DNA from: Asterias amurensis
Lineage: Eukaryota; Echinodermata; Asteroidea; Forcipulatida; Asteriidae
Direction: 5' to 3'
NCBI RefSeq assembly: GCF_032118995.1
Contig: NC_092654.1
Location: 744,001-808,000 of the forward strand
Length of the DNA stretch: 64,000 bases
Positions 26,446 to 61,432 of the stretch are shown one piece after another. The notes under the pieces were generated by a model. That model was not told where the DNA came from. It was given only the letters and a program-made list of their open reading frames with translations, and did no database searches. Both the position numbers and the translations under genes were made by a program. Within the stretch, counting starts at the first letter, position 1. Every line of letters begins with the position of its first letter.

Positions 26446-27237
26446 CTACAAGTGTTTACCTCTTGCAAGATGCGAGGCAAACTCATAACGATCCTTACAC
26501 TGGTGTCCGCAAATATTGCACTCAAGCGCATCTCGGAAACCATGGCAACCCATATGAATAGTGTACATGACGTGATCCAGGAAAATGATCTCACAGTGTT
26601 CACATTTGAAATTATCCGTTCCGGAGACGTCTCGTTTGCAGTTGGCACAGAGTCGGTCGGATTCATCCTCAGCAAGAGATCGTCTGGAACTCCGATGCTG
26701 GGGCGAGTCAAAGGCAGGAGATTTCCTCTCGGTTGAGTCTGCTTTATCCTGGGTTTTGCTCAACCGGGTTGAGCTGTGAGGTTTCTGTCTTGAGTGACCG
26801 TGTACAGAGGAGGATCCAACCGAGTCATCATGGTGACTCACACTATCGTTCGACTCACTCGTCTCGCTCTCAATCTCATGGCAATCCAGTGATGCTACAA
26901 CCTGAGGACCTCCAGCTGAGTTATGAGTCACAAGCAAGTTCTTACTCATGAAGTCTCTTGTTTTGTTGAGGTCGATAGAACCCCTAAACCTGGCCGACTG
27001 ATGGTCGCTTTGTTTGTTTGAGGAGGGGGAGATCTGACTCATGGGTGGGGGTTGGTTCTGGGGGAGTGTCTGGCTGTTCTGTATGTCCCTGTCTGAATCT
27101 AATGGAGCTTGGGAATATACGGAGGTAATGGTTGGTGTTACGTGAACGCCTCCGTCGAGACTCGGACCGGCTCGGCTATTCAAGCAGATCTCCTGACCGT
27201 ACATCTGCATGACGTTAGATATCGCCTTCTCCAAGTC
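26446..27237 (-). CDS. IKZF: IKZF last coding exon, dimerisation fingers
   Basis: It enters after TTTGAATAG in phase 0 with [14 protein letters not shown] and runs 263 codons to TAG. After a long Ser/Gln/His-rich region comes an extra CANC motif, then the two C-terminal fingers, ending HLARGKHL. A single large 3' exon carrying the dimerisation fingers is the normal Ikaros arrangement. Confidence 0.95.
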
Positions 27238-29357
27238 CTATTCAAAGAAACAGATTCATTATTACAACAATACATCACCATGGAATCTAACGTCTGTGAA
27301 TATTCCAGTTTCTAATGTTGACTACAAGTATGAGCAATATGACTTATCAAATAATAACATGACTTGTAATATGTTAAACAAATTTAAACCATCAATTGTC
27401 AGAGTCAAAGTATCAGGGCCTTATTTCATGGCAATGCTTACCACATTATTCTGACAGGGTAAATTTCTAGAATAGCAGTGGAAGTGTAGAAACAAAACCC
27501 AAAGGTAAAACATTTCTCTAGGTTCAAACATTTCATCAAAAGAAATATAACCCTAAAAACAAGGACATGTTCATGCTGTACATACCTCATTGCTGGCTGT
27601 ATCAGTCAGTCCACTTGCTCTGTCTTGGCTAGAATCATGTGAAGAATCTTCATCTGTAAGATTAATGCACATAAAATAAAGGTGTTAAACAAGCCAAATC
27701 TCAAGACAAAAATCATACAAATTTCTGCGCTACCTGTGTAAGCGAATTGGAGAACGCAAGCGCACAAGCAATTCTCTGCTAACCTGTGAAACACGTTTGA
27801 CAAAAGGTTGGAACTCCCTGCTTCTCCAAAAGTGCCAGTTCTTTGTTCACAGTAAGCAAGGCCATAAAATAGGGCCAATGAAAACCTTTTACGCTCTAGT
27901 CCTAAGGGAGACCTTTTACCTGGGTTTAGCTTTCTCTTCTTGCAATGCTCCTTCTCAATAACTTCCACCTCTGCATCAGAGAGTGACCTCAAACTATCTG
28001 AGAAGGTCAACCCTCCGCCATGCTCACCTCGCATCCCTGTGGATTAAATGGATCTTAATGATCAACAATATTTACCCTTGTGCCAAAGTTAATTTTAGGT
28101 TTATCTAAGAGATTTAACTTCAGAGGTACTCAAGTTTCATGTCAGACTTTCACTGGAAGATTTGTTGCCTACAGTTCTATTAAAACATTGAAATTTTGTC
28201 TTAAGTGCACCACACAAAAAAATAACTGTTTAAACATCTGTGAAATGTTTATCACATTTAATGCTCAGTTTGGGTGAGGAATACAAACTTAACTGTATGT
28301 GCAACCGAAGACTGAACTAGAGGTCCACCTTGCTGGTGTCAAATGGTCAGGATTTGCTTATGTGAGCCAGTGTGACACTGATCATTCCAATTACACCAAA
28401 GTGTTCGGTAGAAAGAAATGAAACCTCAATGTATGAATGAGGAAAACAATTGACAGAATGTTGATGGATGAATTACCTTCATATAAAGAGAAAGGATCTG
28501 ATGACGATGACCCATGACCTTCTATCGGGTGAGTACCCATCTTCTGATAACTACACCTCTTCATGTGATACTTCAATGATGCTTTCTGTTTGTACGCTGT
28601 GCCGCAGTACGGGCAGATATTCAGACGTTCCTGTCTGTGCGTTTCCAGGTGAGCAATGAGGGCGTCCTTCCTTCGGCCACTGTAGTGGCAGATAGGGCAA
28701 CGATATGGACGCTCGTCAGAATGGGTGCGGAAATGACGAGTAAGGTTGCCTTTTTGTGAGAAGGCAAAGCCGCAGATAGTACAACAGAATGGACGCTCAC
28801 CTGAGAAAAGGTAGTGGGGAAAATACAATATTGCAAGGTGAACCAATGGCGACAGCTTATTTGGTTTTACTCAAACAATAATACATGTTGAGCACTATAC
28901 TCATTACAATCATTCCTAACTCTTGTGAAACAAATCTTACTTGAGTGGGATTCAAACCAGTGGTGGTTTAACCATTCCTCCAAAGCTCAACTAAGTGTTG
29001 GAATTGATTGTTTTCAAGTATCAGTTGCCTCCCAAGTTACTTTTCAAAATTGTCTTGTAAAGAGGCTCTAAAACCCCTAATAATCTTTCATTTCTTACCA
29101 GTGTGTGTTCTGACATGCTTCTCAAGCTGATGAGAGCTGTCTGATCTGAAGTCACAATCTGAGCAGTGAAACCGAGCCGATTCGCCCACAAGGCTCAAAG
29201 GAGGCTCTTCAACCCTGCTCTCCTTGTTTGACTTATCTTCTTGATCCATCCTCCCTAAGGCTGGACTCCGAGGTTCTGATTTAGGGCTGAGATGACAAGG
29301 GTCTTCATCATCCTCTAAGATGACACATGGGGGATCCTCAACATTGTGGACTTCCAT
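26446..29357 (-). CDS. IKZF: Ikaros-family zinc-finger transcription factor, five coding exons, 519 aa
   Basis: Ikaros proteins are nuclear DNA-binding factors with a central block of C2H2 fingers that binds GGGA-type sites and a C-terminal finger pair for homo- and heterodimerisation. The five exons join in frame to 519 residues, close to the usual 500-585. Finger 1 (about 65-85) is followed at once by TGERPF, finger 2, finger 3 and a CCHC finger 4 (ending near 171), as in Ikaros. Finger 3 has RRKDAL and finger 4 YKQKASL, matching Ikaros RRRDAL and YKQRSSL. The C-terminus (466-519) has [18 protein letters not shown] then [14 protein letters not shown], almost identical to the vertebrate dimerisation fingers. 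The middle is Ser/Gln/Asp-rich and disordered-looking. It is not possible to say which vertebrate paralogue is closest; a pre-duplication orthologue of IKZF1-4 is most likely. Confidence 0.95.
27586..27653 (-). CDS. IKZF: IKZF coding exon 4, linker
   Basis: 68 nt between AATCTTACAG and AATGAG|GTATG. It encodes [20 protein letters not shown] then NE. Frame and phase fit both neighbours (phase 1 in, phase 0 out). It is Ser/Asp-rich with no recognised domain. Confidence 0.85.
27920..28036 (-). CDS. IKZF: IKZF coding exon 3, linker
   Basis: 117 nt between ATCCACAG and CCCAG|GTAAAAG, phase 1 at both ends. It encodes [20 protein letters not shown] then an acidic helix-like stretch ending CKKRKLNP, which could serve as a nuclear localisation signal. 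It joins ..SLYEG to the next exon in frame. Confidence 0.85.
28477..28800 (-). CDS. IKZF: IKZF coding exon 2, fingers 2-4
   Basis: 324 nt between TTTTCTCAG and GAAG|GTAATT, phase 1 at both ends. It encodes [20 protein letters not shown], then fingers [16 protein letters not shown] and [16 protein letters not shown] with the terminal KRC of a CCHC finger. This is the core DNA-binding unit of Ikaros proteins. Confidence 0.95.
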
Positions 29358-29446
29358 CTTATCTTTCTCTTCAAGATTATTTCATGGTGAGAGCTTGTGG
29401 GGCCAGATCTTATCATTAACTTAAAAACTGCGATTTTCAAAGTAAC
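29099..29446 (-). CDS. IKZF: IKZF coding exon 1 with part of 5' UTR, finger 1
   Basis: The acceptor TTTTTCTCCAATAG precedes a short 5' UTR, and coding starts at 29357 ([10 protein letters not shown]). A two-codon upstream ORF (ATGAAATAA) lies 30-40 nt before the start. The acidic N-terminus leads to finger 1, [18 protein letters not shown]. The exon ends CACTG|GTAAG in phase 1. The splice acceptor implies at least one further non-coding 5' exon that was not located. Confidence 0.9.
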
Positions 29447-29534
29447 CTATTGGAGAAAAAGTAAGAAATAAATTTAGGAACAAATGCCAAAAAATATTTG
29501 AAATTTTGCCTCACATTCTTCCAAACAACAAAAT

Positions 29535-29663
29535 GGAAAAGTTTCCGTATGGCGCCACCACTTTTTCATTCGATATGAAATAATATAGTATCTAATTTAC
29601 CTCAATGAGATATCCCTTTTTGTAAAAATGCGTGAAAAAGTGGTGGCGCCACATGGAAAGTTA
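29535..29663. mobile_element. MITE with GGCGCCACCACTTTTTCA terminal repeats, copy 1
   Basis: About 129 bp. The left end GGAAAAGTTTCCGTATGGCG and following CCACCACTTTTTCA face an inverted copy TGAAAAAGTGGTGGCGCC..GGAAAGTTA. The centre (GATATGAAATAATATAGTAT) is shared with the copy at 52138. No ORF. It sits flush against the left arm of a large foldback. Confidence 0.8.
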
Positions 29664-30091
29664 GCCCACCTTGTTGAGCTGTTAATGGCTCCGCTTTTAA
29701 CATCGGTCTCATCACTGTCACCCTTACAGCCCACCTTCAATACATGTCTTAAACGCTAAGTTTTCAAAGGTCGCAAAATGCGAGGTAGTTTGATTGCAAA
29801 TTTCTCCCATTTAAAAAAGTCCTATACTACTCCAACATACCTCATTTTATTCCTTACATTTGTGGAATTACTATAACACATAACAGGGCTTACTAAATTA
29901 TGACTTTGTCCAGATATGATGATTTAAAAATTGGTCCAAAAAAACGTGTACAAAAATTACATTTATTGTGACATGTTCTTGGGCGCCGCCATGTTTTAAT
30001 GATTCTCCTCTTGTTGGACGTGAGAAGTCAGGGCACCAGGCAAATCTTGCAAGTCATGAATATCCAAGAGGTAATGTCACGTGACGCGGTA

Positions 30092-30580
30092 TGGCTACGC
30101 CATAGAGTTATATCAGGCCTGATACTTCACGGAGGCAATGGAGGCGATTGCCTCCGTTGCCCCTGGTCGTTGCCTTGGTGCCCTTGAAATGCTCCAGTAG
30201 AAATTTACAATTTCCTCATAGGGTGCCCTTTACCAAGGAGAAAATGCCTTGGTGCCCTTGCCTTTTCAAAAACAAAGCATACAGGCCTGTTATATACAAG
30301 AACTAGAGTGCGCACTGGCCTATATACGCGCCCCGGTATGCGAGCAGGCGGCCATTTTCTAAGTTGACAAAACAGCTATCTCACAGCGTGTGTTTGTGCG
30401 GCCATTTTGTAAGTTGAACAAACAGCATCGCGTGAGCGTCCAATAAAAAAAACTCAAACGTGTATTTCATATTCAACGCGCGTGCAGAATGACGCGCTTT
30501 TCATCTTGCGGTCCTGTGGCGTTTGTGCACGAAGCATCACTCGTGCGCCCTCTAGTTCTTATATATAACTCTATGGGCTA
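30092..30580. mobile_element. Inner inverted-repeat element nested in the foldback
   Basis: CGCCATAGAGTTATAT on the left and ATATAACTCTATGGGC on the right are inverted, as are AGAACTAGAGTGCGCAC and GTGCGCCCTCTAGTTCT. The left copy is split by the insert at 30114-30289. Between the arms are two degenerate copies of GCGGCCATTTT.TAAGTTGA.CAAACAGC. Confidence 0.7.
30114..30289. repeat. GGCCTTGAA/GGTGCCCTT-family insert in inner element
   Basis: It begins and ends with CAGGCCTG and carries GTTGCCTTGGTGCCCTTG twice in diverged form. It interrupts the left arm of the inner palindrome, so it is younger than that palindrome. Confidence 0.6.
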
Positions 30581-35418: not shown

Positions 35419-35628
35419 TTAAAATGACGTCATTGGATTGATCATGGGCGAGTCGTACACCCAATCTACTGGAACCCATTGTCGTTTGGAAGACATCCCA
35501 TCAATGGCCTCTCTGAGTTTATTGAACGACTCCTCTAAGTTACTGTTGACGATGACGACATCGAAAAGGTGATCGTACGTCTGCTCCATCCGAGCGCTCT
35601 CTTTGACCGTCTTCTGAAGATCATCATC
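35419..35628 (-). CDS. MPP2/MPP6 (vari): MPP last coding exon, GK C-terminus
   Basis: It enters after CTCTTTTGCAG in phase 0 with DDDLQKTVKESARMEQTYDH, includes LFDVVIVNSNLEESF, and ends QWVPVDWVYDSPMINPMTSF then TAA. Vertebrate MPP2/6 proteins stop at WVY, so this protein carries an extra tail of about eleven residues. Confidence 0.95.
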   Translation of the reverse strand, partial: DDDLQKTVKESARMEQTYDHLFDVVIVNSNLEESFNKLREAIDGMSSKRQWVPVDWVYDSPMINPMTSF

Positions 35629-38600
35629 CTGCAAAAGAGTTGGCATATCCGTCAACAAGGTCATCAAAATTAACAAGCCTTCTGCAAGTTATTTTTGTAT
35701 AAATGTCTGATCAATGATTTATAGTCGCAAGTAAACTGCTATGAAGCTTTTATATAGTTATGTAAGAGGCAGTGAACACCCACACCCCATACCCCATTCT
35801 GGAAGACTGTTGGCACAGCGGAACCAAGATTTGCTCATCTGGAGGTTGCTATACAATAACTTGCCCTGAACCATGTGAAGGTGCAACACTGTCTTTAGTC
35901 TGGGGAATCCAAAGTTCATTTGTAATCCAAATATCCACAGGCAAATCACTCGAGTGGGGTTTATCCGTGATGAAAGAATTTACATCAATTATATCTTGAT
36001 TAGTAGGATTTGAAACTTTGCATGGTGGAAAAACGATATGGAAAGGTTTGCGGTAACACCATGTAATGACTATCTCTAATGAGTTGGGGTGGTTCTGAAA
36101 AGAACCGTTGGTTTTGACTCATTAAATTTTGATTGTTGTTATTACCGTTACATGTTTCTCTAATTCTCCAGGTACTTTGGCTGCATCATGGATCTGGCGG
36201 AGTGTTTCTAACTCGGGAGCTTTGATGAATACAACCAGGGGTAGAAACTCACTGTTCCTGAGAAGCTTCAGTGACTGTCAAGAAGAAGACAGAGACACAG
36301 ATAAAGATTGTTTTTAGCAGAGGGGATTATATTTGATGAACTTTGTGAGCAAACTCAGACTTGTCCAGAAGAAAAGAGAAAGAAAGATTATTTTCAGGAG
36401 GGGCAATAAATTTGATGAAATTTGTAAGCAATTTAACAAGAGTCCATGAAGTTTCTAAGATACAGTAACATAAACATATGAACTTTGATCCTGTTTGTTT
36501 TATTTATTTATTTTGTGTTATTTGATTACACGTCCAACAGCACAACTAGCGCAAATAATAGGACGAATAGGAAACAAAAAGAATTAATCAGTTTCACATG
36601 TGGGAGGAAAACTTTAGCTAGGGCTCCAGCTCCAGGCTTCGTCTGCTGATGTTCAAACTATCATGTGCAAAATACACACTGCTCCCATAATGAAGAAGCC
36701 TGAAAGGCAGGTTCATACTCGCTGCATATCCACTGCATACACAGCGTGCAGAGCCCAAGCGGGAGCCCAAGCTGAGGCCCCTTGAATAATAACTACCTGA
36801 GGATTGATGTCCAAAACACACATCTTGCCCGATTTGTTCGTCGTCCGTATTGCGTCAAACGTTGTCCCGTACAGATTCTCAGCGTACTCCCCGTACTCAA
36901 GGAAGCGATTCTGGCGAATGTCTTCCTCCATGTCTAGACGCATTGAGAAGCAATAATCCAGACCATTCTCCTCACCTTCCCTGGGCGGTCTTGATGTATC
37001 TAATCAACAAATAACAACATTCTAAAAGTTAATTATAGATATTTGATTTGAAGGACTTTGATACCTTTTGTAGACCATTGTTTTGCCCATGACATGAATC
37101 TCTACTCACTATGAATGAAGATGTAAGTAATATAATTTACCTTTTGTAGTGTCAGTCTCTAGGCCTGGGCTAATTATTCGAATATCCGGTTAATGGCGAA
37201 TAGGTTTTCCTATCCGTAACCGCGAATGCCTTTTTTTCCTTAACCGGATATCCGCATAAGCCGCGAATAGCTATTTATAAACTGGATAGTTCTGTAATTA
37301 CAACCAAATAACCGAATATTCTTTAATATCCGAATATCCGCAAACATCGGGCGACAACAGACATGAATAATTTGTCTGAATCCTAATGAAACTTCTATTA
37401 AGACAGCATAAAACAGCATTAATTAAGTATTTAACTATGCTCACCTCCGTGAGGAGTTAAAACAATGACATTTGTGACGTAATTTGTTCAAAGATTACAA
37501 AAGTTTTCCTTCACGTAGAGTCATCCACGATCAAAAGAAAAAGCAAATCGCCATCTTTAAATTAGATCCGGTCATTTTTATGAATGAACCGAGTGACACT
37601 GTCTAAAACTAATATCAATCCGCCCAGGAGATCTCATTCACAAACGAACAGCGCCCTCTACCAAAAAAAAAAAAAAAAGTTGGCCAGTGGTATCCGAATA
37701 ACAAAATTTCACTATTCGCCCAGCACTATCAGTCTCGTTAGTCATCAAGTTTTTGAGAAAAAAATTAACAGAGCAATGTTTACTGGAGAGTCGCATAAAT
37801 CCCCTATACATGCTAAACACTTGAGCAGCTGGTTTATAAGAGGGTGGAAAGAACCATTAACTCTACACCAAACAACTCGTTCATCTGACTTCAAATAAAT
37901 CAAGAGTTATGTGATTCCCAGTGACGTGACTGACAACATATCAAAGGATCCTGATGCTAAATAAATGAGAGTTAAACTCACGAGCAACAGCAGTGCCATA
38001 TCTCTTCAGGTCACTATCGATGAGTTTATTCTTGAGTATTCTCCGACCTACTCCCTGAGCGCCGAGTAACACCAATGTCTTCCTCTGAAACGGCGGCATT
38101 TCCTGAACCTCCTCGTAGATCACGATGTCACTGCGGTCGAACTCGTAGTTCTTACGCGTCTGATAACGCTCATGGCGTCGTCTTTTACTCTGTATAAGGC
38201 CGCAAGCCACTGTTTCAAAGGGACATTAAAAAGTTAACTGTGAGGATCATCAATGCAATTTAAAAAGACAAGTTCTCATTAGTCCAGATTCTGGAAACAA
38301 CAATAACTTTGCACCTGTCACCTCTGGGTGTACCTAGACTGTCCCTTGACTCAAACAGATTTAGGAAAGGGACTAACTACTGTTATCAAACTAAAAACAA
38401 CTTTCACTCACTTACCCCCAACTGAAACCCATGGTCTCAACATGTTTAGATTCGATTTCTTGTCTCACCTGTTTGTCTTGTATAAACGTTCTCTTTTGGG
38501 ACAAAAGCTCGCCTCCGCTCCTCCAGCTCTACACTGGGTATAAGACCTGTTGCATTGTCACCGCCCACAATGTATGCCTGTTTACAAAACAATAACATCA

Positions 38601-41600
38601 TTAAAAAACCAAGGCAGTAAGCAGCATCAGCAACAAAGTCACACAATCTCCTGAAGACAATCAGAGCATACTGATCAAAATATTGAGTTATCAACCATCC
38701 ATTCTTTTCAGAAACAACACTACTCAAAAAAAAAGAAATTCACATGGTGTTACCACAAACCTTCATCATGCAAAGTTTCAAATCAAATTAGAGTTGATAT
38801 CCAGGCTTAGATCAGTCTTGGCACAAGACGACGACAGTGATCGATAATGGATAGTGAACTGCAATCGGTTTAAATCGTTGTGGAGCGACCTCTTATGGCA
38901 GTATTTAATCAAGAGCCAGTCGAGTTGGTTAATTCATGCCATAAGAGGGTGCACTATAATGATTTAAAACTGAGCGCAGTACACTATCCACTGTCGATCT
39001 CTGTCAATCTCTGACGTCTTGGGTTAAGACTAGGCTTGCATGAGTCTACCCACCTGCCACCAGTTCTGGTCCTCTCTGTCCACAATGCATAGGATATCTC
39101 CTCTCTGGAAGGACAGCCCGACCTCAGGGCACGGTATCAAGCTGTCATGGTCAGGGTTGTAGTCGAAGAAGGCTCTGACGTACACCTACACAAAATAACA
39201 CCAGAATTTAGTACAACAGACTTGGCACACACAGGCAACTTGGAGGCAACCAGAGGCATAACATTGGGTCCAGGCCTGATGACCACAAAGGCGCATCTGG
39301 TTGCTGCCTTGGTGCCCATGGAACTGTAAATTTATTATAATTAATATTATTATTACACAAAATTCAGCTCAAAAGCTTATTGAAGGTCAAAGGTGAATCC
39401 CTGACACCATTGATGAGGCCAGTACATTGGGCTTGTCATGCAGCAATGTGCAAGGATGACAAATTGGGGTGTTGTTTGCGTGCATCGGGGCATGCATGCA
39501 ACAGGAGAAGGCTTAGCCCAAAAAGAACCAAAATAGTCTCCTTAAATACCACCACTGTAGTAAAACTTTGGCAACTGCTCAACGGTAATTTATTCCATTC
39601 AAAGTTAACAGCAACCCAATATTAACACAGGAGGAGAGCTCTTTGCAAAACTGCACACAGCCAAACCAATATAAGTGCTTGTCCATGATTGCCAATTCAG
39701 TTCATTTAAAAGGCAGTGTAGTTTAGAGCAAGCTTACAACCCTAGAATAAACATCAATTAAATTATATTTGAGATACAGAATCTATTCATAAAGCGAGTG
39801 CAAGGACAATGGGTGCAACATGCTCGGACATTTCTACTGAGTACCCTTAACCAATGTTATAAACACATACCAGAAGTATCCAATTCTGAAAAACATAAAT
39901 TTGAACAAATACAAAAGAAAGACAACATTAACATTTTAACAATACAATTTTCTCATATATTAAAGGCAGTGGACACTATTGGTAATTACTCAAAATAATT
40001 ATTAGCATAAAACCTTTCTTGGTGACAAGCAATGGGGAGAGGTTGATGGTATAAAACAATGTGAGAAACAGCTCCCTCTGAAAAGGCATAGTTTTTGAGA
40101 AAGAAGTAATTTTCCACGAATTTGATTTCGAGACCTCTGATTTAGAACTTGAGGTCTTGAAATCAACCATCTAACAAACACAACTTTGTGTGACAAGGTT
40201 GTTTTTTTCTTTTATTATTATCTCGCAACTTCAATGACCGATTGAGCTCAAATTTTCACGGGTTAGTTATTTTATGCATATGTTGAGAAACACCAAACTG
40301 TGAAGGCTAGTCTTTGACAATTACCAATAGTGTCCACTGCCTTTAAACACTGTAGTTTTGAGAATAAATAAACTGGTCCATTGAACCACACAAATATTGT
40401 GTTTTTATTGGTCCTGAGCTGTTTAACTTGTATTAGGCCATCAGCTTATGTTAAGGGAGAATGCTGAAACAGATCATCAAACACACAAGACTGAACATCA
40501 ATGGTGTCTTGTCAACAAAACGTTTACCGATGATAAAGTGATCCATTCATGCACAAATGTTTTGGTAGGTTAGCGTGGTCCAGTGGTTAGACTGCAGGAC
40601 TTGCAATATTAAGGTGGTTGGTTCGAATCCCCCAAACTAACTGCTGATTTCACAATGACTGAAATAAATATTGTCGTCTAGTTACTAAATCATAATTTCT
40701 TGATTTGTGTAATCCATAATCATAGACGTTAAACCAATGTTTGTATGAGAGATTGGCTGTTGTCAGCTTGGTGTTTCTATCCCCTTGTAGGAGTTTGCCA
40801 TGATCCCTTAATGGGAAGATCATCTAAACAAACAAACAGGTTTTTTTATTCATGACTTACAGGTAGGTTGTGATAATCGTTGTGATAGCTTGGAATAATC
40901 TTGAGTGTGACGTTACCGGAAGCCATCTTCATATGTTCCTGCAATGCATCAGGGTCATTGGTCACATCAAGACCATTAACCTCCTTAATGATATCACCAA
41001 CATGCAAAAGACCTGGATAAATAAAGAGGACAAAGGGTCAAACATTACCTCGTAAAGAACTGTATAACACAACATTGTTCAATAAACAGTTGCTTTGCTA
41101 AGACCTGATTCAACCCAAGCAGAGTATTTCTTAGCCTTTGAGAGAGACTCTGCTAAGTTAAAAATCTCAGCTCTGTTCATATTTATGTAGAAAACTATGG
41201 CTCACCCTGTTTCTCAATAATGCCTCCATGAATTACCCTGGCGACGACTACTTCTCCATGCTCCTGTTTCAATGTTATACCCTGCAGAAATTCCAAAAGA
41301 AATCACAAAAGAAAAGTTGTCAGATTAGTAGGACTACAGTGGTTTAAATGTCTCTGCAGTCTTTATCAACAAACCTCTCACACTTTACTTCATGGAGCTG
41401 CTTAACCAAGAATTCTGCTCAGTAAAGCGCAGAATATTGCCAGTAAGAACACGATTTCCAGGTAAGTAGTGCCATGATCGTTGGCCCTGATAAAGGTCTA
41501 GGAGGCCTTGAAATTCCCTCTTGAAGGGGCACAGGAATTCTGCTCTGGGGAGGGGCACCTCTTTGAGGAAAATGTAAATTCTATTTTTATTGAAACTTTG

Positions 41601-44600
41601 CAAAGGGCACCACAGCCTGCCACACCACTGGGCGCCATGGCAAACGCCTTGGGTTTCATGGGTTAATTCAAGGCCCAGTTAAGAGAGAGAGGACCCTGTG
41701 GATGATTTCTTACCAAAGGCTCATCTTTTCCTTTCCTGATTCCAACCATCCTGATGGCGTCTCCGACAGCGTTGAACTCATGAGGGGGTGGATAGGCTGG
41801 ACGTGTACGATCCAAGAAGACTGACGGCTGCTCAAAGTCACCATTAGCGATACTGTCATGGGTCTTGGTTAAGGACTAGGAAAGGAAAGAAAAGAAAATG
41901 AATATCACAAAATGTTGAAGACTTAACTGTTCAAAGCCCTTTAATTTGTTTCTTTTTGATTCGTTATTGTTCAGTGCCTTGATCTAGTGTCTAGGGTATG
42001 TGCGCTTTATAAGACCTCTTTAATAATTTAACCATAATAATAATAGTGGCTTCTTATATAGCACGCATGTCCGTCACTCAGTGACGCTGCTGGCACTGTA
42101 ACATACAGTATTTCCTGCAAGATGTGGGACTTGGTTTGAATTATGAGACATAATCCTTAAATGGCACCAGGTAATGTATTATTATTACTTTAGAGTCAGA
42201 CACTTACTGTGAAGTTGAGATCATCCAGAATTCCTGCCAGTTCAGCAGCACCATCATCTTCCGCTATTAACGGACCGATGTCATCAATGACCTCATTGAG
42301 GAGAGAAACACCATCTTTCCTCATTGGTTTCAGTTCAATCTCCTCCAGTGTGTCATGCGCCTGATGAAATGAATGGAGAGATGGTTACTTATAAGGCCTG
42401 GAAGAATTATACAAAGACCAAACAGGCCTTGGTTTCTGTTGCCCTGGTCTTGGCCCTAATGGAAATGCCCTTTGATTGGGAAATGATCTAGTGAGGTTTG
42501 TGGTGACACCACATACAAATCATAAACTTCATCATGATATTTGGAGGTTCTGAGAAGAACCAGTGGTTTGACAACTCAACGTTTAGATAAGTATGCTCTG
42601 ATCGTCAACATGCAGGCCTTCAATTTCAAACAGCAATTTCCTCCGACGGTCCTGGAGCTTTGCAAAGGGCTTCACAGCATAAGGCCATTGTAATTGCTGT
42701 GGTTGTTGTGGGTTAACTTGAGGCCTGTACATGGCGTCATTATGAAAAATGCAAAAATCAGGCAATTCTTGGAAACAGGGAAGTTGAAACATCAGCCATG
42801 TGATTTGATGTCAATCTAGGAGTGAATTACACTGTAATATTATAGGCTTACTTGAAAGCTGTTCTTCTCATGTATTCAAAAAGGAAATAAACCTAGTTGT
42901 TTTGAGTTTTGACAAGAGGTGTATGGAGTGATTTGGGAATGGAGAGTCAGAATTTGTTCTCTAACTCAATAAAATCAGATGTATCGGTTTCACTCTTCAC
43001 ACAGTCACACGTATAGCTTTTACATGTAGGATTGCGTGACTGAATAAAACTATGACATTTTATTTCAGGAATTCCATCAAAACTAAAACAGGAAGCATAA
43101 AAAGTATTTAGTTTAGAATAACTAGTAACATAATCTAAATATATTGCAGCAATGATGAGAGATTTGGATTTCAAATATTGCATGCACTCTGCAATTAAAA
43201 AAGAAATAAACGATTTTTTTGTAATGCAAGTTCGCCCCTTGAAACAAGGCTAAAAGCCATTATTGGAATGGGGCTACAAGAAGAAAACATTTAAGATGAA
43301 AATATCTCGAGTGGAGCTGAAGGTAGGAATTGATATTCCTCTCAAAAAAAAACATGCACCAGGCAAGGAGATCCAAAGAGCGTGGAATAAAGCTGTTTGA
43401 ATGCCTTTTTGTTCTGCATCTCAGCAATGCATGAGTGTGTGGCTTGGGTGGGAACAAACAGAAAGCCTGGATTTCACGCTCAAACACCCCCAATAGGAGG
43501 AACTAGGTCAGACACACTGGTGGTGCATTTACCATGAAAATATCTAAAGAACAAGGAAAATGGTGGCCTTGCCTTCCACCTCTGGGACCCAAGTTCAAAT
43601 CCCACCGAGGGCACTATGTGGATTGGTTTTTCAGTCCCTAACTGAGAATAATCCCTGGAATAATTCTCCAGGGATTTCATCACACATCTAAAACTTAAAT
43701 TTTCTTCTTGTCTTCTCTCCATTCAGCCATTCTGTTCTTGGCTATTGCCGTGATTAAGTTTGCTTTTCTGAGAGTCTTCCTTGGCTTTTAGACAACTGTA
43801 GAGCTCTAATAAATAGCCTGAAATACAATCTTGTATTCTGTACCTTAACCAGATTCTGCAGAACTCTTCCTTGCATGACTTCCTTGAGGAATAAGAGGTC
43901 AACGCTCTGTGCTTCTGCAGAATTCCCGATGTTGTGAAGATTGTCAACAACAGTATCCATGGCTTCTGTAAAGAGAACCATCGAGAATTGGATTACTTCA
44001 AAATATTACGTTTGAAAGAATGCACTATTAGGAGTGCACCCTCTGGTTTGGGTGTATACAGATAAAGATTACCCAGACCTTATTAGTGTCAGAGTGCAGC
44101 TGTCCATCATATCTCAAAATGGCTTAGATAGTATTTCTACAGCCTGCAAAATTACATACAAATACAGCACTTTACAATGTCCCTACAATGTGGTATAATA
44201 TGTGGACTAACAGTACACTCTGCACCAACATTATCAATGTGCACATAATCCATACAGTTCAATAAGTAGTCTTGCTCTCAAGACCTTTGTCTTCGTTAAT
44301 CCAAAGACCCTCGAAGAAGAAGCCTTGAGTTGTGTATTGTATATCTTGGTCATAATGAAAACAACTGCGGCTACAGTTGGTACTGGAAAATCATAATGTA
44401 TCATTTGATAGTATCGCTTGGAGCTAAGACTAATTCCACCGAGTCTGTTTGTATCATTTGATAGTAACGCCTGGAGTAAAGACTAATTCCACTGAGTCTG
44501 TACAAGTGCACAAATGCATGTACTAGGCCTACCTGTCTACATACACTGCATAGAGATCAATAATTTGTATGGATTTTACGCAATAAAACCTCTCGCTTGA

Positions 44601-52071: not shown

Positions 52072-52487
52072 ATGATGCAAGATAATAATGAAAGAAAAAA
52101 CACCCTTGTCACACAAAGTTGTGTGCTTTCATATGCTGGAAAAGTTTCCGTATGGCGCCACCACTTTTTCATTTGATATGAAATAATATAGTATCCAATT
52201 TACCTCAATGAGATATCCCTTTTTGTAAAAATTAGTGAAAAAGTGGTGGCGCCATACGGAAAGTTATCCCACATGCTTGATTTTGAGACCTCAAATTCGA
52301 AAAGTAAAATTGAGGTCTTGAAATCAAACTTGTGGAAAATGACTTCTTTCTCGAAAACTATGTTTCTTCAGAGGGAGCCGTTTCTCACAAGTCAATATTT
52401 TATAATATAAACAGCTCTCCATTAATTACTCGTTACCAGGCAAGTTTTTTATGTTAATCAAAATTATTTGGAGTAATTACCAACTGC
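52072..52487 (-). mobile_element. Diverged GGCAGTGGACAC-family copy, split by a MITE
   Basis: On the plus strand CACCCTTGTCACACAAAGTT..GTGCTTTCATATGCT is interrupted at 52138 and resumes at CATGCTTGATTTTGAGACC. It runs on through GAGGGAGCCG, TTACTCGTTACCAGGCAAG and GGAGTAATTACCAACTGCC. The order matches the minus strand of the copy at 39961. Confidence 0.75.
52138..52270. mobile_element. MITE with GGCGCCACCACTTTTTCA terminal repeats, copy 2
   Basis: 133 bp with long inverted ends (GGAAAAGTTTCCGTATGGCG / GGGATAACTTTCCGTATGGC). It is inserted inside the older element, with an imperfect 8-bp duplication CATATGCT / CACATGCT on its flanks. It is about 90% alike to the copy at 29535 by eye. Confidence 0.85.
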
Positions 52488-53370: not shown

Positions 53371-53469
53371 CATGAAGCCCAAGTTTTGCACTGTGTAAGA
53401 CGAAACCCTGTGTCCCTAAATGGGCATTAATCCTGTGGGCAAAGGATGACACAATATCCCCTCTCTTGG

Positions 53470-54830
53470 CCCTAGATTGCACATCACAGAGCATCTAAAA
53501 TGCAAAATTTTACCGGGCCCTTAATCGGGCCCGCACCCCGAGCCGTTAAGGCTTCTCACACGCATGCTCCATCGTTGACAGATTTGCACCTCCCCCCTTG
53601 AAAGAGTGGAAGGGACGTGTACCCCACCCCACCCCACCCCACCCCACCCCACCCACCCCATTTTCGAAGAGTGGGGGACATGACACAGTATCAATGTTCC
53701 CCGTGTCGTTTGACCACCTTTATTGTGAAAATCGTGTTTTGCACTGAGGAACTGCTGGAGCACTTGAGCACAAATATTCATACAGCTCATTGTTCTGTTT
53801 CGTTTGCCATTTGGCCGCTAAATGGCCTAAAGATTGCACCACAGAGCATCTAAAAATACAGAATTTTCCCGGGCCCTTCAGCGGGCCCGGACCCATGCCG
53901 GAAAGGTTTCACACTCACGTGCTCACTATTTGACAGTATTTTACCCTAAAACTTGGTTCATAGAGCCGCACTTGAAGATGCTGTCAACCCAAAAGGTTCT
54001 TCTGCTGCTTACATTTTACAGATGTTCTGTTCCGTTCTGTAAGATTGCACCACAGAGCATCTAGAATGCAAAATTTTCCCGAACCCTTAAGCGGGCCCGG
54101 ACCCTTCGGCGGGCCCGGACCCATGTCGTAAAGGTTCTACATTCGCGTGCTCACTCTTTGACAGATTTTCCCCCTAAAATTTGGTTCATAGATCCGTACT
54201 TGAAGATGCTGTCAACCCAAAAGGTTCTTCTGCTGCTCACATTTTTACAGATGTTCTGTTCCGTTCTGTATGCCTCTTATTGGTCTATTTAGATTGCACC
54301 ACAGAGCATATAGAATGCAAAATTTTCCCGGACCCTTAAGCGGGCCCGGACCCATGCCATAAAGGTTTCGCACTCGTGAGCTCACTCTTCGACAGGTTTA
54401 CCCCCTAAATCTTGGTTCATAGGTCCGCACTTGAAGATGCTGTCAACCCAAAAGGTTCTATACTGCTGCTCACATTATACAGATGTTCTGTTCCATTCTG
54501 ACAGATTTGCCCCATAAAACTTGTGTCTTAGGTCTGGTGATGATAGGGATGAAACGCCGTCTGAGCATTAGAATGCAGAAACAATATTGATATAACGAAG
54601 CTATAATTGAGTTGCTTTTTAGGTACAATAACCATAATAGCAAGAACAGGTGCATCATAGCTTGAAATAGGCATTAAATTCCAACATCTGAGAGGGGGGG
54701 AACATCACCCCTCAGATTCACTAGATTGCACCAGAGAGCATCTACGGGCTAAAGAAAATTCCGGGGCCCTAAAGCGGGCCCGGACCCCACGCCGTAAATG
54801 TTATGTCCCCCCACACTTCATAAATTACCG
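53470..54830. repeat. Irregular tandem array of GGGCCCGGACCC units
   Basis: Five copies start with AGATTGCACCACAGAGCATC at about 53473, 53832, 54041, 54291 and 54724. Each runs through TGCAAAATTTTCCCGGGCCC, AGCGGGCCCGGACCCATGCC and GTAAAGGTTT. Three continue with TTGGTTCATAG, GCACTTGAAGATGCTGTCAA and CCCAAAAGGTTCT. Spacing varies (about 209-433 bp), so units have different internal lengths. No protein is encoded. Confidence 0.8.
53620..53661. repeat. (CCCCA)n microsatellite
   Basis: Eight CCCCA units then CCCACCCCA. The minus strand (TGGGG)n could form G-quadruplexes. It lies between two units of the GGGCCCGGACCC array. Confidence 0.9.
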
Positions 54831-54837
54831 TTTTTTA

Positions 54838-55820
54838 ATCTTCAAAAAGAAAAAGGGAAAACAAACCCTTTTCCCTTTCCGGTTTTTGATCTTCAAAAGG
54901 AAAAAGGAAAAACGGCCTTCTATACCCTTTACCGTTTTTAAATCATCAAAAAGGAAAAAGGAAAAACAAACCCTTTACCCTTTAAGGAAGAGGAAAAACA
55001 AACCCTTTACCCTTTACCGTTTGTTAATCTTCAAAAAGCAAAAGGGAAAACAAACCCCTTTACCCGTAACTATTGTTTAATCTTCAAAGGCAGTGGACAC
55101 TCTTGGTAATTACTCAAAATAGTAATTAGCATAGAACCTTACTTGGTAATGAGTAATGGGGAGAGGTTGATGGTATAAAACATTGTGAGAAACGGCTCCC
55201 TCTGAAGTGCCGTAGTTTTCGAGAAAGATTTAATTTTCCACAAATTTAATTTCGAGACCTCAAGTTTAGAATTTGAGACCTCGAAATCAAGCATCTGAAA
55301 GCACACAAAAGTCACAACTTCGTGTGATAAGGGTGTTTTTTTCATTCATTGTTATCTCGCAACTTAGATGACCAATTGAGCTAAAATTTTCACAGGTTTG
55401 TTATTTTGTGCATATATTGAGATACACTAAATGAGAAGACTGGTCTTTGACAATTACCAATAGTGTCCAAATTCCCTTTACCCTTTATCGTTTTTTAATC
55501 TTGAAAAGGAAAAAGGAAAAACAAACCCTTTACCCTTAACCGTTTTTTAATCTTCAAAAAGATAAAAACGAAATATGAACCCTTTATCCTTTGCCGCTTT
55601 TAATCTTCAATAAGGAAAAAGGAAAAAACAAACCCTTCACCCTCTTCCGTTTACAATTTTTAAAAGGTAATAAAAGGGAAACCAAACCATTTTACCCTTT
55701 ACCGTTTTATTTTTCTTCATAAGGAAAACACAAAGAACGATCCCCTTTACTTTCCGTTTTTGAAAAATTTCAAAAGAAAAAAGGAAAAAGCAACCCTTTA
55801 CCCTTTACCATTATTTTAAA
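54838..55820. repeat. CCCTTTACCGTTTTT..GGAAAAAGGAAAA minisatellite, split by a mobile element
   Basis: Repeated units of about 45-60 bp: ACCCTTTACCGTTTTTAATC, TTCAAAAAGGAAAAAGG, AAAAACAAACCC. They run 54838-55083 and 55470-55820, with an outlying unit at 53150-53245. The gap is filled by an inverted-repeat element. Each unit pairs a C/T-rich with a G/A-rich half. Confidence 0.8.
55086..55469. mobile_element. GGCAGTGGACAC-family element inside the minisatellite
   Basis: It begins AAAGGCAGTGGACACTCTTG and ends CAATTACCAATAGTGTCC, with all interior blocks of the 39961 copy in order. Minisatellite units continue on both sides, so the element inserted into a pre-existing array. Confidence 0.85.
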
Positions 55821-55834
55821 AATCTTCTAAAAGG

Positions 55835-55916
55835 AATTCGCGCCATATCTCGCGCCACCTCGCGAGCTCGTGTTGCATTCTGGGAAGCACGTGTGAGTCT
55901 CACAAAATTTGCAAAC
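55835..55916 (+). promoter_or_regulatory. PA2G4 core promoter, TATA-less and CpG-containing
   Basis: Just upstream of the start codon are CGCGCC twice, the palindrome CTCGCGAG (55859-55866), ATTCTGGGAAG, and an E box CACGTG (55888-55893). There is no TATA box. CTCGCGAG-type and CACGTG motifs are common at housekeeping and ribosome-biogenesis promoters. Transcription start is not defined, and the 5' UTR must be short because minisatellite repeats end at about 55820. Confidence 0.55.
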
Positions 55917-56007
55917 ATGGCGGACAGCGAAGTATCCGAAGATGAACAAACTGTGGCCCAAGATAGCGTGGTCACAAAGTATAAGACCATCGGAGAAATT
56001 GTCAACA
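55917..56007 (+). CDS. PA2G4: PA2G4 exon 1
   Basis: The start context is AAACATGG. It encodes [20 protein letters not shown] then [10 protein letters not shown], ending ACA|GTAAGT in phase 1. The human protein has EDEQQEQTIAEDLVVTKYK. Confidence 0.95.
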
Positions 56008-59000
56008 GTAAGTTTGGTTATGCTTGAGAACACCTTGGTTCGATTTTCTTTGTTTTAGTGTGATTTGTCTTTCCGTTATTGGAAAGAAACCGACCCAACT
56101 TCATGACAGCTGGTCGTGTGTGCGTGTGTGTGTGTGTGTGACTTTTTTTTGGACAATAAACTTTGAAACGTTGAATTATCAGAGTATCACATAACAAACA
56201 GACAGCATTAATTAACCATAGAGCAAGGAAGAACCTTAAATAAACAGACTGTTGTGTGCGTAGAAAAGCATTTTCTGTGAAAATATTTCTTAGTTGGCAG
56301 TTGTGTTCAATCGATAATTTGAAAATGCCCTTTTTAATAACAAAACAAAATTCAAATAATAATGAAATAAATAAAGTCGATCATCTGGTTGGCATGGAGT
56401 GGATTTATGAGGTGATTAAATTAATCAAATTGACCCCTATTGGTTGCAACACCTCGTGCAATAAATGCATGGTACTAAAATAGCATGGGAAACAAAAAAT
56501 GAACATGTTGAATTGTTAAAACGATTATGACTGAATTGATTAATCATAATATTAAATTAAAATATCTCACCTCATCAGGGACAGGAATATCTCTATTTTT
56601 TATATCGAAACGAATGAAAAAGGGGTCTGTGAAAAAGTGGTGGCAGGATATGGGATTTTTTTGTGATTTTTCATAAAAATCATAGGCCTAACTGACAACG
56701 TCTATCTATGCCTTGTTCACTAATTGAGTGATAAAGTTGGTAAATTATGATTTTTATGAACAACACCATGCCATGGTTACTAATACTTAGTTGCGATAAC
56801 GTAACCCTCCTGCCGACGGCGTAGCCGGAGGGTTACGAGTCGCTTCAATCAAAAAACGGCGAAATACTTTAGTCAACAGATTTGCTCATTTTTTTACCAC
56901 TTTAATAAATAATGACACAAATTCTGTGAACACGAACGTCATCCTCAATGTCTAATGATTAAGATTCAAAAACACAATTGAGAAAATATTTTGAAAAAAA
57001 AAGGACAAAAACTTACCAGATTCCGGGAGCGAAACAGTCACAAATTTCCCAGGTTCTATTTTTGAACCTGTCGCTGGTTACCATGCGCAGCCCCAAGCGC
57101 TGAACCCAACCGCAGGTACCAGCCGACCGAGCCGCAGCTGAGTTTGACTAAACCATTCTGTAAAAAGGGGTGTTACAAGGTGTGCTGCAGTGCGGCAGTG
57201 CTTTAAGTGAGTGAACAGCGGGCATAGTAAACGGACAACGCACACGCACTGCCGCGCTGCCTTATAACACCCCTTTAACAGAATGGTTTAGTCTTACAGC
57301 AATGAACATCGGGAAGTCACAAAATGGTGTAGCGAAAGGTTCAAAATAGAACCTGGGACTGTTTCGCTCCAGGATCTGGTAAGTTTTTGTACTTTAGTTC
57401 AATATACTTTCTCAATAGTGTGTTAAGTGTTATTCATTAGATATTGAGGATTAAGGTCGTGTTCTTAGAACTTAAGTCATGATTTTCGAAAAGGGAAAAA
57501 ATCGAGCAAATCTGTTGACTAGCTGTTGAAATTGTACGTGTTTGACCATTTCGCCGTTTTTCGATTGAAGCGACTCGTAACCCTCCGGCTCCGCCGTCGG
57601 CAGGAGGGTTACGATATCCCAACTAACTAATACTATGCTGAAGATGAATGTGTGCCGACCAGTCACTTGGTTGGTTTCCATGGCTTTGTCAGACCAACCA
57701 TCAGGGACTTGACATTTTTTCACTGTTTATATCATTAGACATGATCATGTGAACATTTCCAAAAATGTACTTATTAGGTGTGTCTGCTGTCACCTATTGT
57801 CCCAAAAGTCCCCCCTGATATAGGTGTATCATGTAATTATTGTAAACCTTGTTCCATGATGTTCTTACAGAGGCCCTAAAGCTTGTAGTTTCCAAGGCAG
57901 TTGCTGGGGAGAAGGTGCTGTCGCTTTGTGATGCTGGGGACTCCTACATTGAGGAGGAGACGGGCAAGATCTTCAAGAAGAACAAAGAGATGAAGAAAGG
58001 TGAGGAAGAGGGGACGGAGTAGATTGTCAGGTATACACATGTACATCAGATTTAACTGCAAATCTTGGCAGATCTCTGGCGTAAGTTCGGGAAACATCAA
58101 TGGAAATAAGGAATAGATTTGCGGAGACACAAAGTAATATCTCTCTTCAGGATCTGAGGATTGATCCGCAGCGTTTCAAACAGTATGCTCTGTTCGTCGT
58201 CTTCTGATGCCTTGCCCTTCAAAAGATGAAACTCCAGGCCACAAATATCTCAAGAGATTTCACGTGGTTTCACTGCAAACCTATTCCTTATTAACTTAAC
58301 CGCTGGTATTGCAATACTAAGATGAGCTAGCTTTGATTTTGTGATTTACTTCAAAGAAACCTTTTTTTAAAGTGTTATTTTCTTCTTGGTGTGGTGTTGC
58401 AGGTATAGCGTTTCCTTGCTGTGTGTCAGTCAACAACTGCGTCTGTCACTTTTCACCGCTCAGAAGTGATGCTGATGTTGTCCTCAAGGACAATGACGTT
58501 GTCAAAATGTAAGTGGAAATAGATAACTGCAGAACTTGTTCCATCATTTATCAGGGATGCTTGTAGACATTGTATGGAATACATTCAGTTAAAAAAAGCA
58601 TGATGACTAGGTTTATCTTTATCACTGATATACATGTAAGGTAGGAAATTCGCGTGTCCATCAAACATTCATTGTGCATAGTGTGTACAAAACAAAAAGC
58701 ATACCTGGCTATAAAAGATACTTGTAAAACTTGTAAAATTAAAACACTCCAGTAATAGATGGATTGCAAATAGCATCGTTGACCGCAATATTAGATGATA
58801 AACAATGGAAAAGTGTAGGTGCTGCGCACAACAATGAAAGCCTTTGATGGATTCACGTTTCATCAAAGATGGTGTTCAATGATGTCATGTGCAATCTATC
58901 TCATGAAATGGACGAGTGATCAGATACAATGAAGATAAGATTCACAACCAATTGTGTTGATTGTTTGTGTTCCTCCATTCAACACTAACATCGCCAGGCA

Positions 59001-61432
59001 CATCTCCAGTTTTAGTTTAGTTTTTGTACTGATGTCATATTGAATGGTTCTATTTCAATGCACAGTGACATGGGTGGCCACATTGATGGTTTTATTGCTG
59101 TAGTAGCACAGACGGTGGTTATCGGAGCCTCGGCAGAGAATAAAGTAACTGGGAGACTAGCGGATGTAGTCCAGGCTGCGTACACATGCTCAGAGGCTGC
59201 CCTCAGGAAAATCAACCCCGGAGTACAGGTACAATACTACAATGTCTGCTGCTTTGTAGCGTCCCCAAAAGTCTTGCAATGCGTAGCATGTCCGGCTGTG
59301 GTAGGCAGTAGCCTCTGTAAAAATTATGAAAGATTTAGTACATGGAGTTGATCCAGAACAATGGTTATAAGGGGCAAGTTTTATTAAAGCTGCTATAACA
59401 ATGCTTAATGAATAAGCAACATTTATCCCATGGCAGGATAGCTAGTAACCCATCTAAGCTTCTTTATTGTGCTTAGCACATTTGTCACATGGTAGATAGG
59501 CTTGTTACCTGTCTTTACCCTCAGCACATTTGTCTGCCTTAGAAATGTGCCTTAGCTCTAAGAAAAAAGGCCTTAAAAACACACAAACAAACAAGCATGT
59601 GAGTGTCTGTACAATAAATGATCAGTAATATTGAAATTTGTTGTCTTTTCCCCCCGTCTCTAGAATTACGACATAACAAAGGTATTCCAGACCGTCTCCG
59701 AGACGTTCAAATGCAATCCGGTGCAGGGTATGCTATCCCATCAGCTGAAACGTAACGTCATCGATGGAGAGAAGTCAATCATTCAAAATCCAACGGACGA
59801 ACAGAAGTAAGAATATTGTTCTCTGGCAAATTTAGTTGCAATTTAGTTTCATAAAACAAAAAAACACCCTGTTTTTTGCAGACTTGTTAAACAAAATTTG
59901 GAGCAAGTCTATGTGAACTGGAGTAAGAAACATTGTTCTCTGGCAAATTAGTGCATTTATGTTTCTTAAAAGAAAAAAAACTTGTTCAGTTCTTGGAGCA
60001 AGTTCTATGTGAAGTGGACATGTTTTATAAAGGAACTGCATCACACTGCCCAGTTTCTTGAATAGTTTCTTCATGTCTTATTATAAATTTCCACTATTCA
60101 TAATCAGGAAAGACCACAAGGCCTCCGAGGTGGAAGTTCACGAGGTATACGCCATCGATGTCCTCGTCTCTACCGGTGACGGTAAAGTGAGGGAGCGAGA
60201 CACACGCACCACCGTTTACAAGAAGACAGAAGTCGTCTACAACCTCAAGATGAAGGCCTCTAGAACTCTGTACAGTCAAGTTGAGAGCAAATTCTCACCC
60301 ATGCCTTTTACACTCAGGTAGGTTTTCTGGGGCATTGATATCTTCATAACCATTATATTCAAGAGTATATCTCTCATTAAATATTTGACAAAACATTTGT
60401 CAAGAAATGTCACTTCTCCTGAAGACAATTGAAGCTCTGATCGATCGAGAGCATTTTACTGATCAAAACATTGAGTTGTCAACCGTCGGTTATTTTCAAA
60501 ACCAACACTACTCAAAAAGAGATTTTCACATGTTGGTTAGTTGTAATTTTTATTTTCCATGAGTAAGCAGATTTGTACTGGAGATTAGAAGAATGTCATA
60601 ACTCACAAGATTTTTGTTCTCATTGATAGGGCCTTGAAGGAAGAAGGCAAGGCTCGTATGGGTATCGTGGAGTGCTTAACCCACAAAGTGATGGAGCCAT
60701 ATCCAGTATTGTATGAGAAGGAAGGCAAGGTGGTGGCCCAGTTTAAATTCACCGTGCTCATTATGCCCAATGGACCTCTGCGAATCACACAAGGGGTACA
60801 TCACCCAGAGTTCTACAAGTCAGAACACTCAATCAAGGATCCTGAAATCAAGGTGGGTACCAAAGCCGCAATCTTCCTTTTGTTATTTGGTTTGAATCCC
60901 TCCCGAGTAATTTGCCTGTGGATTTTTTTTCACAGAACTCGGGAAAAGTATACAAGTAATACAAGTCTGTGTAAGGGTAAAAACAAATGATATTCTAGTG
61001 CACTTGTTAGACTCCACCTTGTAGCCCAATTTCTTAAAGCTTTGTGCGTAATAAATTTCTGCTAAGCCAGATTTGTCCTTGCTCAGCAAGATTTTGTAAA
61101 GTTTGGTGTTGGTGATAGATAAGTTAGTAAAATGAAACTAATTCCTGTGTTTTGATTCCTTGATTCTTTCCAGGCTCTTCTACAACTTTCGGCCAACCGC
61201 AAGGCAGCTAAGAAGAAGCGAAAGAAGGTAAATTATTTTAATGGGTATTTCCCCATTGCATATATTTTGCATTTTGATGTTCTTTTAATCCCATTTGCAT
61301 TCAAACCTGTGTCACATTGAAATTATCAGTGTTTCTTTCTTCCTTGACTAGGCTGCAAGCAAAGCTGCAGATGCTGCAGGAGCGACTGAAGATGCCGAGC
61401 CTCCAGAGCTCGTTGAAGATGCGGCCAAGTGA
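55917..61432 (+). CDS. PA2G4: Proliferation-associated protein 2G4 (EBP1), nine coding exons, 399 aa
   Basis: PA2G4/EBP1 binds ribosomes near the tunnel exit, takes part in rRNA processing, and in vertebrates interacts with ErbB3. It has the M24 'pita-bread' methionine-aminopeptidase fold but is not an active peptidase. Nine exons join in frame to 399 residues (human 394). Matches to the human protein include [82 protein letters not shown] and MPNGP.RIT. The C-terminal KKKRKK matches the lysine-rich RNA-binding and nucleolar-targeting tail. The second metal-ligand Asp of aminopeptidases is Val121 here (Asn in human), consistent with a non-catalytic protein. It is transcribed away from the MPP gene. 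Confidence 0.97.
56114..56140. repeat. (GT)n microsatellite
   Basis: An almost perfect GT run with one GC interruption in PA2G4 intron 1. Confidence 0.9.
56580..56660. repeat. Decayed fragment of the GGCGCCACCACTTTTTCA MITE
   Basis: ATATCGAAACGAATGAAAAAGG and GTGAAAAAGTGGTGGCAGGATA resemble one end of the MITE at 29535. The other end is lost. Confidence 0.45.
56787..57626. mobile_element. 840-bp foldback element in PA2G4 intron 1 with target duplication
   Basis: It is flanked by CTAATAC on both sides (56780-56786, 57627-57633). Ends TTAGTTGCGATAACGTAACC and, inverted, TTAGTTGGGATATCGTAACC. Nearly the whole element is palindromic: GGAGGGTTACGAGTCGCTTC, GTCAACAGATTTGCTC, the AGGTTCTATTTTGAACC region, and GACTAAACCATTCTGT each recur inverted. 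Each end also forms its own hairpin (CGTAACCCTCC..GGAGGGTTACG). No ORF of note. Confidence 0.9.
57871..57999 (+). CDS. PA2G4: PA2G4 exon 2
   Basis: 129 nt (TTCTTACAG, AAAG|GTGAGG), phase 1 at both ends. It encodes [20 protein letters not shown] then [16 protein letters not shown]. Confidence 0.96.
58009..58402. other. PA2G4 intron 2
   Basis: Contains a CAGTATGCTCTGTTCGTCGT and TTTCACGTGGTTTCACTGCA repeat fragment of the CATGGTGTTACC family. No coding signal beyond the flanking exons. Confidence 0.5.
58403..58508 (+). CDS. PA2G4: PA2G4 exon 3
   Basis: 106 nt (GTGTTGCAG, AAAAT|GTAAGT). It encodes [20 protein letters not shown] then [19 protein letters not shown] is identical to the human protein. 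Confidence 0.97.
59066..59228 (+). CDS. PA2G4: PA2G4 exon 4
   Basis: 163 nt (TTCAATGCACAG, GTACAG|GTACAA). It encodes [20 protein letters not shown] then the [12 protein letters not shown] and [10 protein letters not shown] helices. It holds the altered metal-ligand region. Confidence 0.96.
59229..59663. other. PA2G4 intron 4
   Basis: AT-rich, with GCTTAG-rich remnants of the CCCAATTTCATAAAG repeat family. No exon seen. Confidence 0.45.
59664..59806 (+). CDS. PA2G4: PA2G4 exon 5
   Basis: 143 nt (CGTCTCTAG, CAGAA|GTAAGA). It encodes [20 protein letters not shown] then [20 protein letters not shown]. Confidence 0.96.
60108..60317 (+). CDS. PA2G4: PA2G4 exon 6
   Basis: 210 nt (TTCATAATCAG, CTCAG|GTAGGT). 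It encodes [20 protein letters not shown] then STGDGK and MPFTL. EVHEVYA.DVLVS.G.GK is shared with the human protein. Confidence 0.96.
60415..60540. repeat. CTCCTGAAGACAAT..TTCACATG family repeat in PA2G4 intron 6
   Basis: CTCCTGAAGACAATTGAAGC, ACTGATCAAAACATTGAGTT, AACACTACTCAAAAA and TTTTCACATG follow the copy at 38650 block for block. Confidence 0.6.
60630..60852 (+). CDS. PA2G4: PA2G4 exon 7
   Basis: 223 nt (TCATTGATAG, ATCAAG|GTGGGT). It encodes [20 protein letters not shown] then [20 protein letters not shown] and PNGPLRIT. Confidence 0.97.
61174..61227 (+). CDS. PA2G4: PA2G4 exon 8, lysine-rich tail
   Basis: 54 nt, phase 0 (ATTCTTTCCAG, AAGAAG|GTAAAT). It encodes [18 protein letters not shown], matching human ALLQSSASRKTQKKKKKK. 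Confidence 0.96.
61352..61432 (+). CDS. PA2G4: PA2G4 exon 9, C-terminus
   Basis: It enters after CCTTGACTAG and encodes [20 protein letters not shown] then VEDAAK and TGA. This is an Ala/Glu-rich acidic tail, poorly conserved as in other species. Confidence 0.92.
   Translation, partial: AASKAADAAGATEDAEPPELVEDAAK

Follow-up and report, generated by a model that had tools for sequence, protein, structure and literature searches.

We analyzed a window of 64,000 nucleotides from the sea star Asterias amurensis (assembly GCF_032118995.1, contig NC_092654.1, here C7, positions 744001-808000), in which three genes lie within 35 kb: an IKZF gene and a MAGUK gene of MPP2/6 type, both on the minus strand, and PA2G4 on the plus strand. 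All three had been named in a preliminary description of this DNA made from the sequence alone, and our analysis confirmed them. IKZF, MPP2/6 and PA2G4 have C7 in common with ERBB, three Sp genes and RNF41, and the Hox cluster is on C5. Very probably, the window forms part of an ancestral chromosome that has been conserved, and the link of its genes to Hox arose in the vertebrate line by fusion of the linkage groups B1, B2 and B3.

Chromosomal positions of the window genes, the Hox cluster and the marker families

The assembly comprises 491,506,623 bases in 23 contigs. C23, with 16,427 bases, has a size typical of a mitochondrial genome, and the ten of the other 22 contigs that were viewed (C1, C3, C4, C5, C7, C8, C14, C15, C19 and C22) range from 13.4 to 38.0 Mb. 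Sea stars have 22 chromosomes (PMC11310086, PMC11175523), and C7 is most likely one of them. The preliminary description had raised the concern that the window might be misassembled; there was no sign of this, as the window contains 0 N and its reading frames are intact.

A search of the assembly with an Antp-class homeodomain found 34 matches, 11 of them within C5:25.92-26.37 Mb. Typed by eye, ten of these 11 were Hox1, 3, 4, 5, 7, 8, 9/10 and three Hox11/13, and the eleventh (25.98 Mb), a partial match, occupies the place of Hox2. The presence of Hox4 and of three Hox11/13 types, with a chromosome number of 22, fits a sea star. Engrailed, Gbx and Mnx types were likewise found on C5 by eye. 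ParaHox-type homeodomains (Xlox and Gsx, by eye) were seen near each other at C4:15.31-15.39 Mb. The homeodomain matches on C7 amounted to one, a lone and partial match (47%) at 22.64 Mb. The preliminary description had implied a linkage of its three genes to Hox, with a check of whether the Hox cluster is on the same chromosome, and the implication was not supported here: the cluster is on C5 and the window on C7. Thus, the genes of the window belong to the HOX paralogon, but they do not mark an ancestral Hox neighbourhood as judged by a shared chromosome.

Eight marker families, which we chose as families on HOX chromosomes, were sought in the assembly by six-frame, exon-wise searches, in which single exons are visible and some genes are missed; seven families had a match. 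In human, NAB, GRB and glutaminase genes have their places on HOX chromosomes. The human places of ERBB, IKZF, SP and Hedgehog were taken from PMC2235844, which puts all four IKZF genes and SP1-4 on HOX chromosomes, and that of RNF41 from PMC6262175. The ERBB-specific domain PF14843 had three matches, all on C7 at 23.74 Mb, and the RNF41 domain PF08941 had a single match at C7:15.8 Mb (E 3e-79). Among the 150 of 1020 Sp candidates that were scored, the three best matches (86-91% identical) were all on C7, spread along it at 1.08, 22.68 and 23.53 Mb, and the C7 genes were typed by eye as Sp6-9 (box CDCPNC), Sp5/btd (box CRCPNC) and an Sp1-4-type exon. About 0.27 Mb to the right of the window, at C7:1.081-1.091 Mb, the Sp1-4-type finger exon is succeeded within 10 kb by two more finger exons, divergent and Sp/KLF-like, in the same orientation. 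Both NAB matches were on C5, as were two of the three Hedgehog matches, the third and weakest being on C21. Altogether, three of the seven matched families were on C7 (5.0% of the assembly; binomial P 0.004), and five of the seven were on C5 or C7 (P 0.0002); these values are an indication rather than a clean test, because the families were chosen by us, partly after earlier results had been seen. With these added families, C7 carries families of the vertebrate HOX paralogon above chance, as would be expected of a component of it. The match to the vertebrate HOX-bearing chromosomes, which had been proposed from IKZF, MPP and PA2G4, therefore stands for C7, where it extends to ERBB, three Sp types and RNF41, but it does not stand for linkage to Hox itself.

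Several observations weigh against reading C7 as such a component. GRB7/10/14, which adjoins IKZF/ERBB in human, had its one match on C16, all three glutaminase matches were on C17, and a STAT domain search of the assembly gave no match, which is not proof of absence; thus, not every family of the paralogon is on C5 or C7. A search with the M24 domain returned 12 matches, 0 of them on C7, and because it left out the window's own PA2G4, the exon-wise search evidently misses genes. Furthermore, the list of markers changed as results arrived, and the chromosome placements all come from one genome.

Ancestral linkage groups and alternative explanations

The vertebrate linkage group CLGB, which bears the Hox clusters, equals three amphioxus chromosomes, each with a different scallop counterpart (Simakov et al., 2020, PMC7269912). 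The bilaterian Hox cluster has been placed in B2 (Lin et al., 2024, PMC11175523), and the same work describes fusions by which B2 joined C2 in ambulacrarians, O2 joined B3 in sea stars, and B1, B2 and B3 joined one another in the vertebrate lineage; a brittle star paper (PMC11310086) agrees for echinoderms. B1, B2 (with Hox) and B3 were accordingly separate in the deuterostome ancestor (PMC11175523, PMC7269912). C7 is probably B1 or B3(+O2), a Hox-free component of CLGB. Going by this literature, C7 would have descended from B1 or from B3, the latter fused with O2 in sea stars, and C5 would have descended from B2+C2; the C7 genes would then owe their HOX link to a fusion of B1, B2 and B3 that took place in the vertebrate lineage no later than the genome duplications. 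Such linkage would persist because gene moves between chromosomes are rare while order inside a chromosome scrambles, and the adjacency of IKZF, MPP and PA2G4 would need no functional reason. The spacing of 35 kb adds little if most C7 genes have human homologues on HOX chromosomes, because any three neighbours would look alike on such a chromosome. The proposal that the window preserves a neighbourhood from before the vertebrate duplications may thus hold for the chromosome, but not for Hox, given the cluster on C5 and the separate B1-B3 of the reconstructions.

Compatible with descent from an ancestral chromosome is a closer association, in which IKZF and PA2G4 would have remained close neighbours, a few genes apart at most, from the deuterostome ancestor onwards, perhaps through regulatory elements of one lying in or near the other. 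A table of genes in a human 12q13.2-q13.3 deletion (PMC6262175) gives SUOX, IKZF4, RPS26, ERBB3, PA2G4, RPL41 ... SMARCC2, RNF41; with its order taken as map order, RPS26 and ERBB3 stand between human IKZF4 and PA2G4. In the window, one identified gene and about 27 kb separate the two, and a rough, uncomputed estimate gives less than a 1% chance for two genes of the same chromosome to lie so close. However, human MPP is not adjacent and the relative orientation differs, ERBB, whose human member ERBB3 stands between the two, is 23 Mb distant on C7, and the comparison covers two species and was noticed post hoc. We regard a conserved micro-block of this kind as possible but rather unlikely.

That an ancestral Hox-linked neighbourhood existed, and that Hox or the block in the window later moved to another chromosome in this lineage, appears improbable, even though the four human IKZF genes and SP1-4 are all on HOX chromosomes (PMC2235844) and an ancestral Sp-Hox linkage has been proposed from Nematostella and vertebrates (Schaeper et al., PMC3087555). 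In the reconstructions, Hox belongs to B2, and B1-B3 are separate from one another except in vertebrates (PMC7269912, PMC11175523, PMC11310086). Moreover, Hox is on C5 together with NAB and Hedgehog, and IKZF, ERBB, three Sp genes and RNF41 are together on C7; a lone move is disfavoured because a single event would not carry all the C7 families. Chance, whereby a person familiar with the human map could find a vertebrate paralogon to fit any three neighbours, is very improbable: the triple was indeed picked after the fact and human TRIO, the counterpart of the gene next door, is off the HOX chromosomes, but ERBB, Sp and RNF41 from outside the window are also on C7 (3/7, P 0.004, with markers of our own choosing).

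Gene models and other features of the window

The human guide sequences for the spliced alignments (PA2G4, PALS2/MPP6, IKZF1 and TRIO) are not database copies. PA2G4 (EBP1) has nine exons at 55917-61432 on the plus strand. The spliced alignment with human PA2G4 covers 55929-61408 in nine exons, with 232 of 389 aligned columns identical, and the open frames add a start (ATG at 55917) and a stop (ending at 61432). In a PDB search the protein matched PA2G4 chains (E 2e-158, 530 bits), followed by a putative curved DNA-binding protein (4ipa, 6e-56) and MetAP2 (1e-25, 94 bits). These matches point to a full-length EBP1 of M24 fold, and not to methionine aminopeptidase 2, as the predicted product. 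Two tandem arrays were observed upstream of the start of PA2G4, one at 53831-54500 (about 2.9 copies of a 228-base unit) and one at 55474-55836 (6.7 copies of a 53-base unit).

The IKZF gene was traced through three exons on the minus strand. The last exon (26449-27237) is an open frame of 263 residues with the C-terminal pair of zinc fingers, the dimerisation pair, which aligned without gaps to human IKZF1 over 53 residues. Fingers 2-4 lie in the exon at 28394-28870 (aligned part 28448-28800), where Pfam zf-C2H2 matched in three stretches (E 9e-18), and finger 1 lies in the exon at 29091-29381 (aligned part 29099-29314), where the Pfam C2H2 matches were weak and below cut-off. The N-terminal fingers carry the pattern GERPF..QKGNL..RRKDAL and likewise aligned to IKZF1 without gaps. 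Pfam gave no finger match in the last exon, and only generic C2H2 in the gene. In the PDB, the finger array matched Helios and Ikaros at 84-88 bits, and because many other C2H2 proteins scored higher, the array alone is not decisive. Given this ranking and the silence of Pfam in the last exon, the identity of IKZF leans on the IKZF1 guide sequence. Overall, 176 of 496 columns were identical in the spliced alignment, which is unreliable outside the fingers, with the middle of the gene poorly resolved.

The MAGUK gene (35419-43960, minus strand, 12 exons) has the domain order L27-PDZ-SH3-GUK. Residues 1-540 of the 540 of human PALS2/MPP6 were aligned, with 274 of 545 columns identical, over 12 exons at 35455-43960, a 13-base one of which is doubtful; the last frame adds 11 further residues before a stop at 35419. 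Pfam recognized L27 and PDZ above the cut-off and Guanylate_kin, in one exon, below it, and GUK and SH3-GUK structures matched in the PDB. When the PDZ domain alone was compared with solved structures, human MPP2 was closest (96 bits), ahead of CASK (81), MPP1 (74), MPP7 (58) and MPP5 (56). When the entire protein was compared, MPP5 ranked first among solved structures (270 bits), full-length MPP2/6 not being among those listed. Solved-structure searches thus suggest the p55/MPP class, and the domain order and full-length homology point to MPP2/6 within it. MPP4 on 2q, which the preliminary description had counted among the vertebrate paralogues, is presumably not an ohnologue of MPP2/6. An intron of the gene (36066-36111, minus strand) contains a match to the histone stem-loop of the 3' untranslated region (Rfam RF00032, 35.7 bits, gathering threshold 34), and no histone gene was seen beside it.

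Trio had been described as a neighbour of the block, and this was borne out by two 5' exons in the window (2994-3054 and 2334-2448, minus strand) and by exons in the left flank, into which the gene runs on. The remainder of the gene is in C7:724001-744000, with spectrin-repeat and SEC14-type exons at C7:734-744 kb. Across flank and window together, 330 of 626 columns were identical to the human TRIO N-terminus, the last three exons being doubtful, and a SEC14-like N-terminus is followed by spectrin repeats, the arrangement of the Trio/Kalirin family. Pfam scans of the window, which did not extend to the flank, gave nothing for Trio; it was the sequence of the left flank that made the gene evident.

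Over most of the remaining window, with the plus strand at 26.4-44.6 kb and small parts of the minus strand left unscanned, Pfam scans returned no more than four matches, all of them weak (E 0.016-0.046). A degenerate TAGGGT array at 6970-7043 (about 12 copies, 66% matches) is telomere-like sequence in an interstitial position. Two pairs of dispersed repeats, 39962-40172 with 55086-55296 (87% alike) and 29534-29677 with 52137-52280 (93% alike), are possibly fragments of mobile elements. In the right flank, an open frame of about 630 residues with coding-like codon use (C7:840470-842365, plus strand) had no Pfam match and, by tblastn, no match to guide sequences of neurabin/spinophilin.

Relation to published linkage groups and implications

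Macrosynteny conservation of these linkage groups has been published already. As in the papers on CLGB, B1 and B3 (PMC7269912, PMC11175523), homologues of HOX-chromosome genes are found here on a chromosome apart from Hox; those papers, in the parts that concern these groups, treat chromosomes, whereas here named genes are placed (IKZF, MPP2/6, PA2G4, ERBB, Sp and RNF41). For the local IKZF-MPP-PA2G4 block, we found no report in the open-access literature searched (IKZF/ERBB/PA2G4 synteny, invertebrate and echinoderm Ikaros, and the Ikaros/ERBB paralogon).

Co-duplicated groups defined in 2007 (PMC2235844) include GLI/HH/INHB/IGFBP/SLC4A, ERBB/ZNFN1A/IGFBP, HOX/SP and ITGB/MYL. Like the second of these, ERBB and IKZF (ZNFN1A) are together on C7; unlike the HOX/SP group, Sp is on C7 and Hox on C5. 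The idea that each such group equals one ancestral chromosome is rejected in view of this separation of Sp from Hox and by the presence of Hedgehog with Hox. It is also disfavoured because Hox and ErbB, which share a tree topology (Lynch and Wagner, PMC2622764), are nevertheless on different chromosomes here. With the proposed linkage of an Sp cluster to the Hox cluster (Schaeper et al., 2010, PMC3087555), our data agree in that three Sp types are on one chromosome, though spread, and disagree in that this chromosome is C7 and Hox is on C5. The presence of Sp with IKZF and ERBB on a Hox-free chromosome speaks against the published ancestral Sp-Hox linkage.

Tentatively, then, the HOX paralogon may be a composite, in which a chromosome with IKZF, ERBB, Sp, PA2G4, MPP and RNF41 and another with Hox, NAB and Hedgehog would have met only in the vertebrate line; the close linkages of Sp and of IKZF/ERBB to Hox in vertebrates, one of which has been proposed in print to be ancestral, would be derived, and the IKZF-PA2G4 micro-block would have been kept for more than 500 million years.

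Sp-Hox linkage was left open for sea urchin and amphioxus in 2010 (PMC3087555), and the present result is an answer, from one echinoderm, to that question for invertebrate deuterostomes: the two are on separate chromosomes. The named genes placed here also make it clear that a family linked to HOX in vertebrates may have had no link to Hox in the ancestor. ERBB, IKZF and Sp, which have been used in studies of HOX-cluster duplication, are on another chromosome than Hox in this animal and hence need not share the history of the Hox cluster before the duplications.

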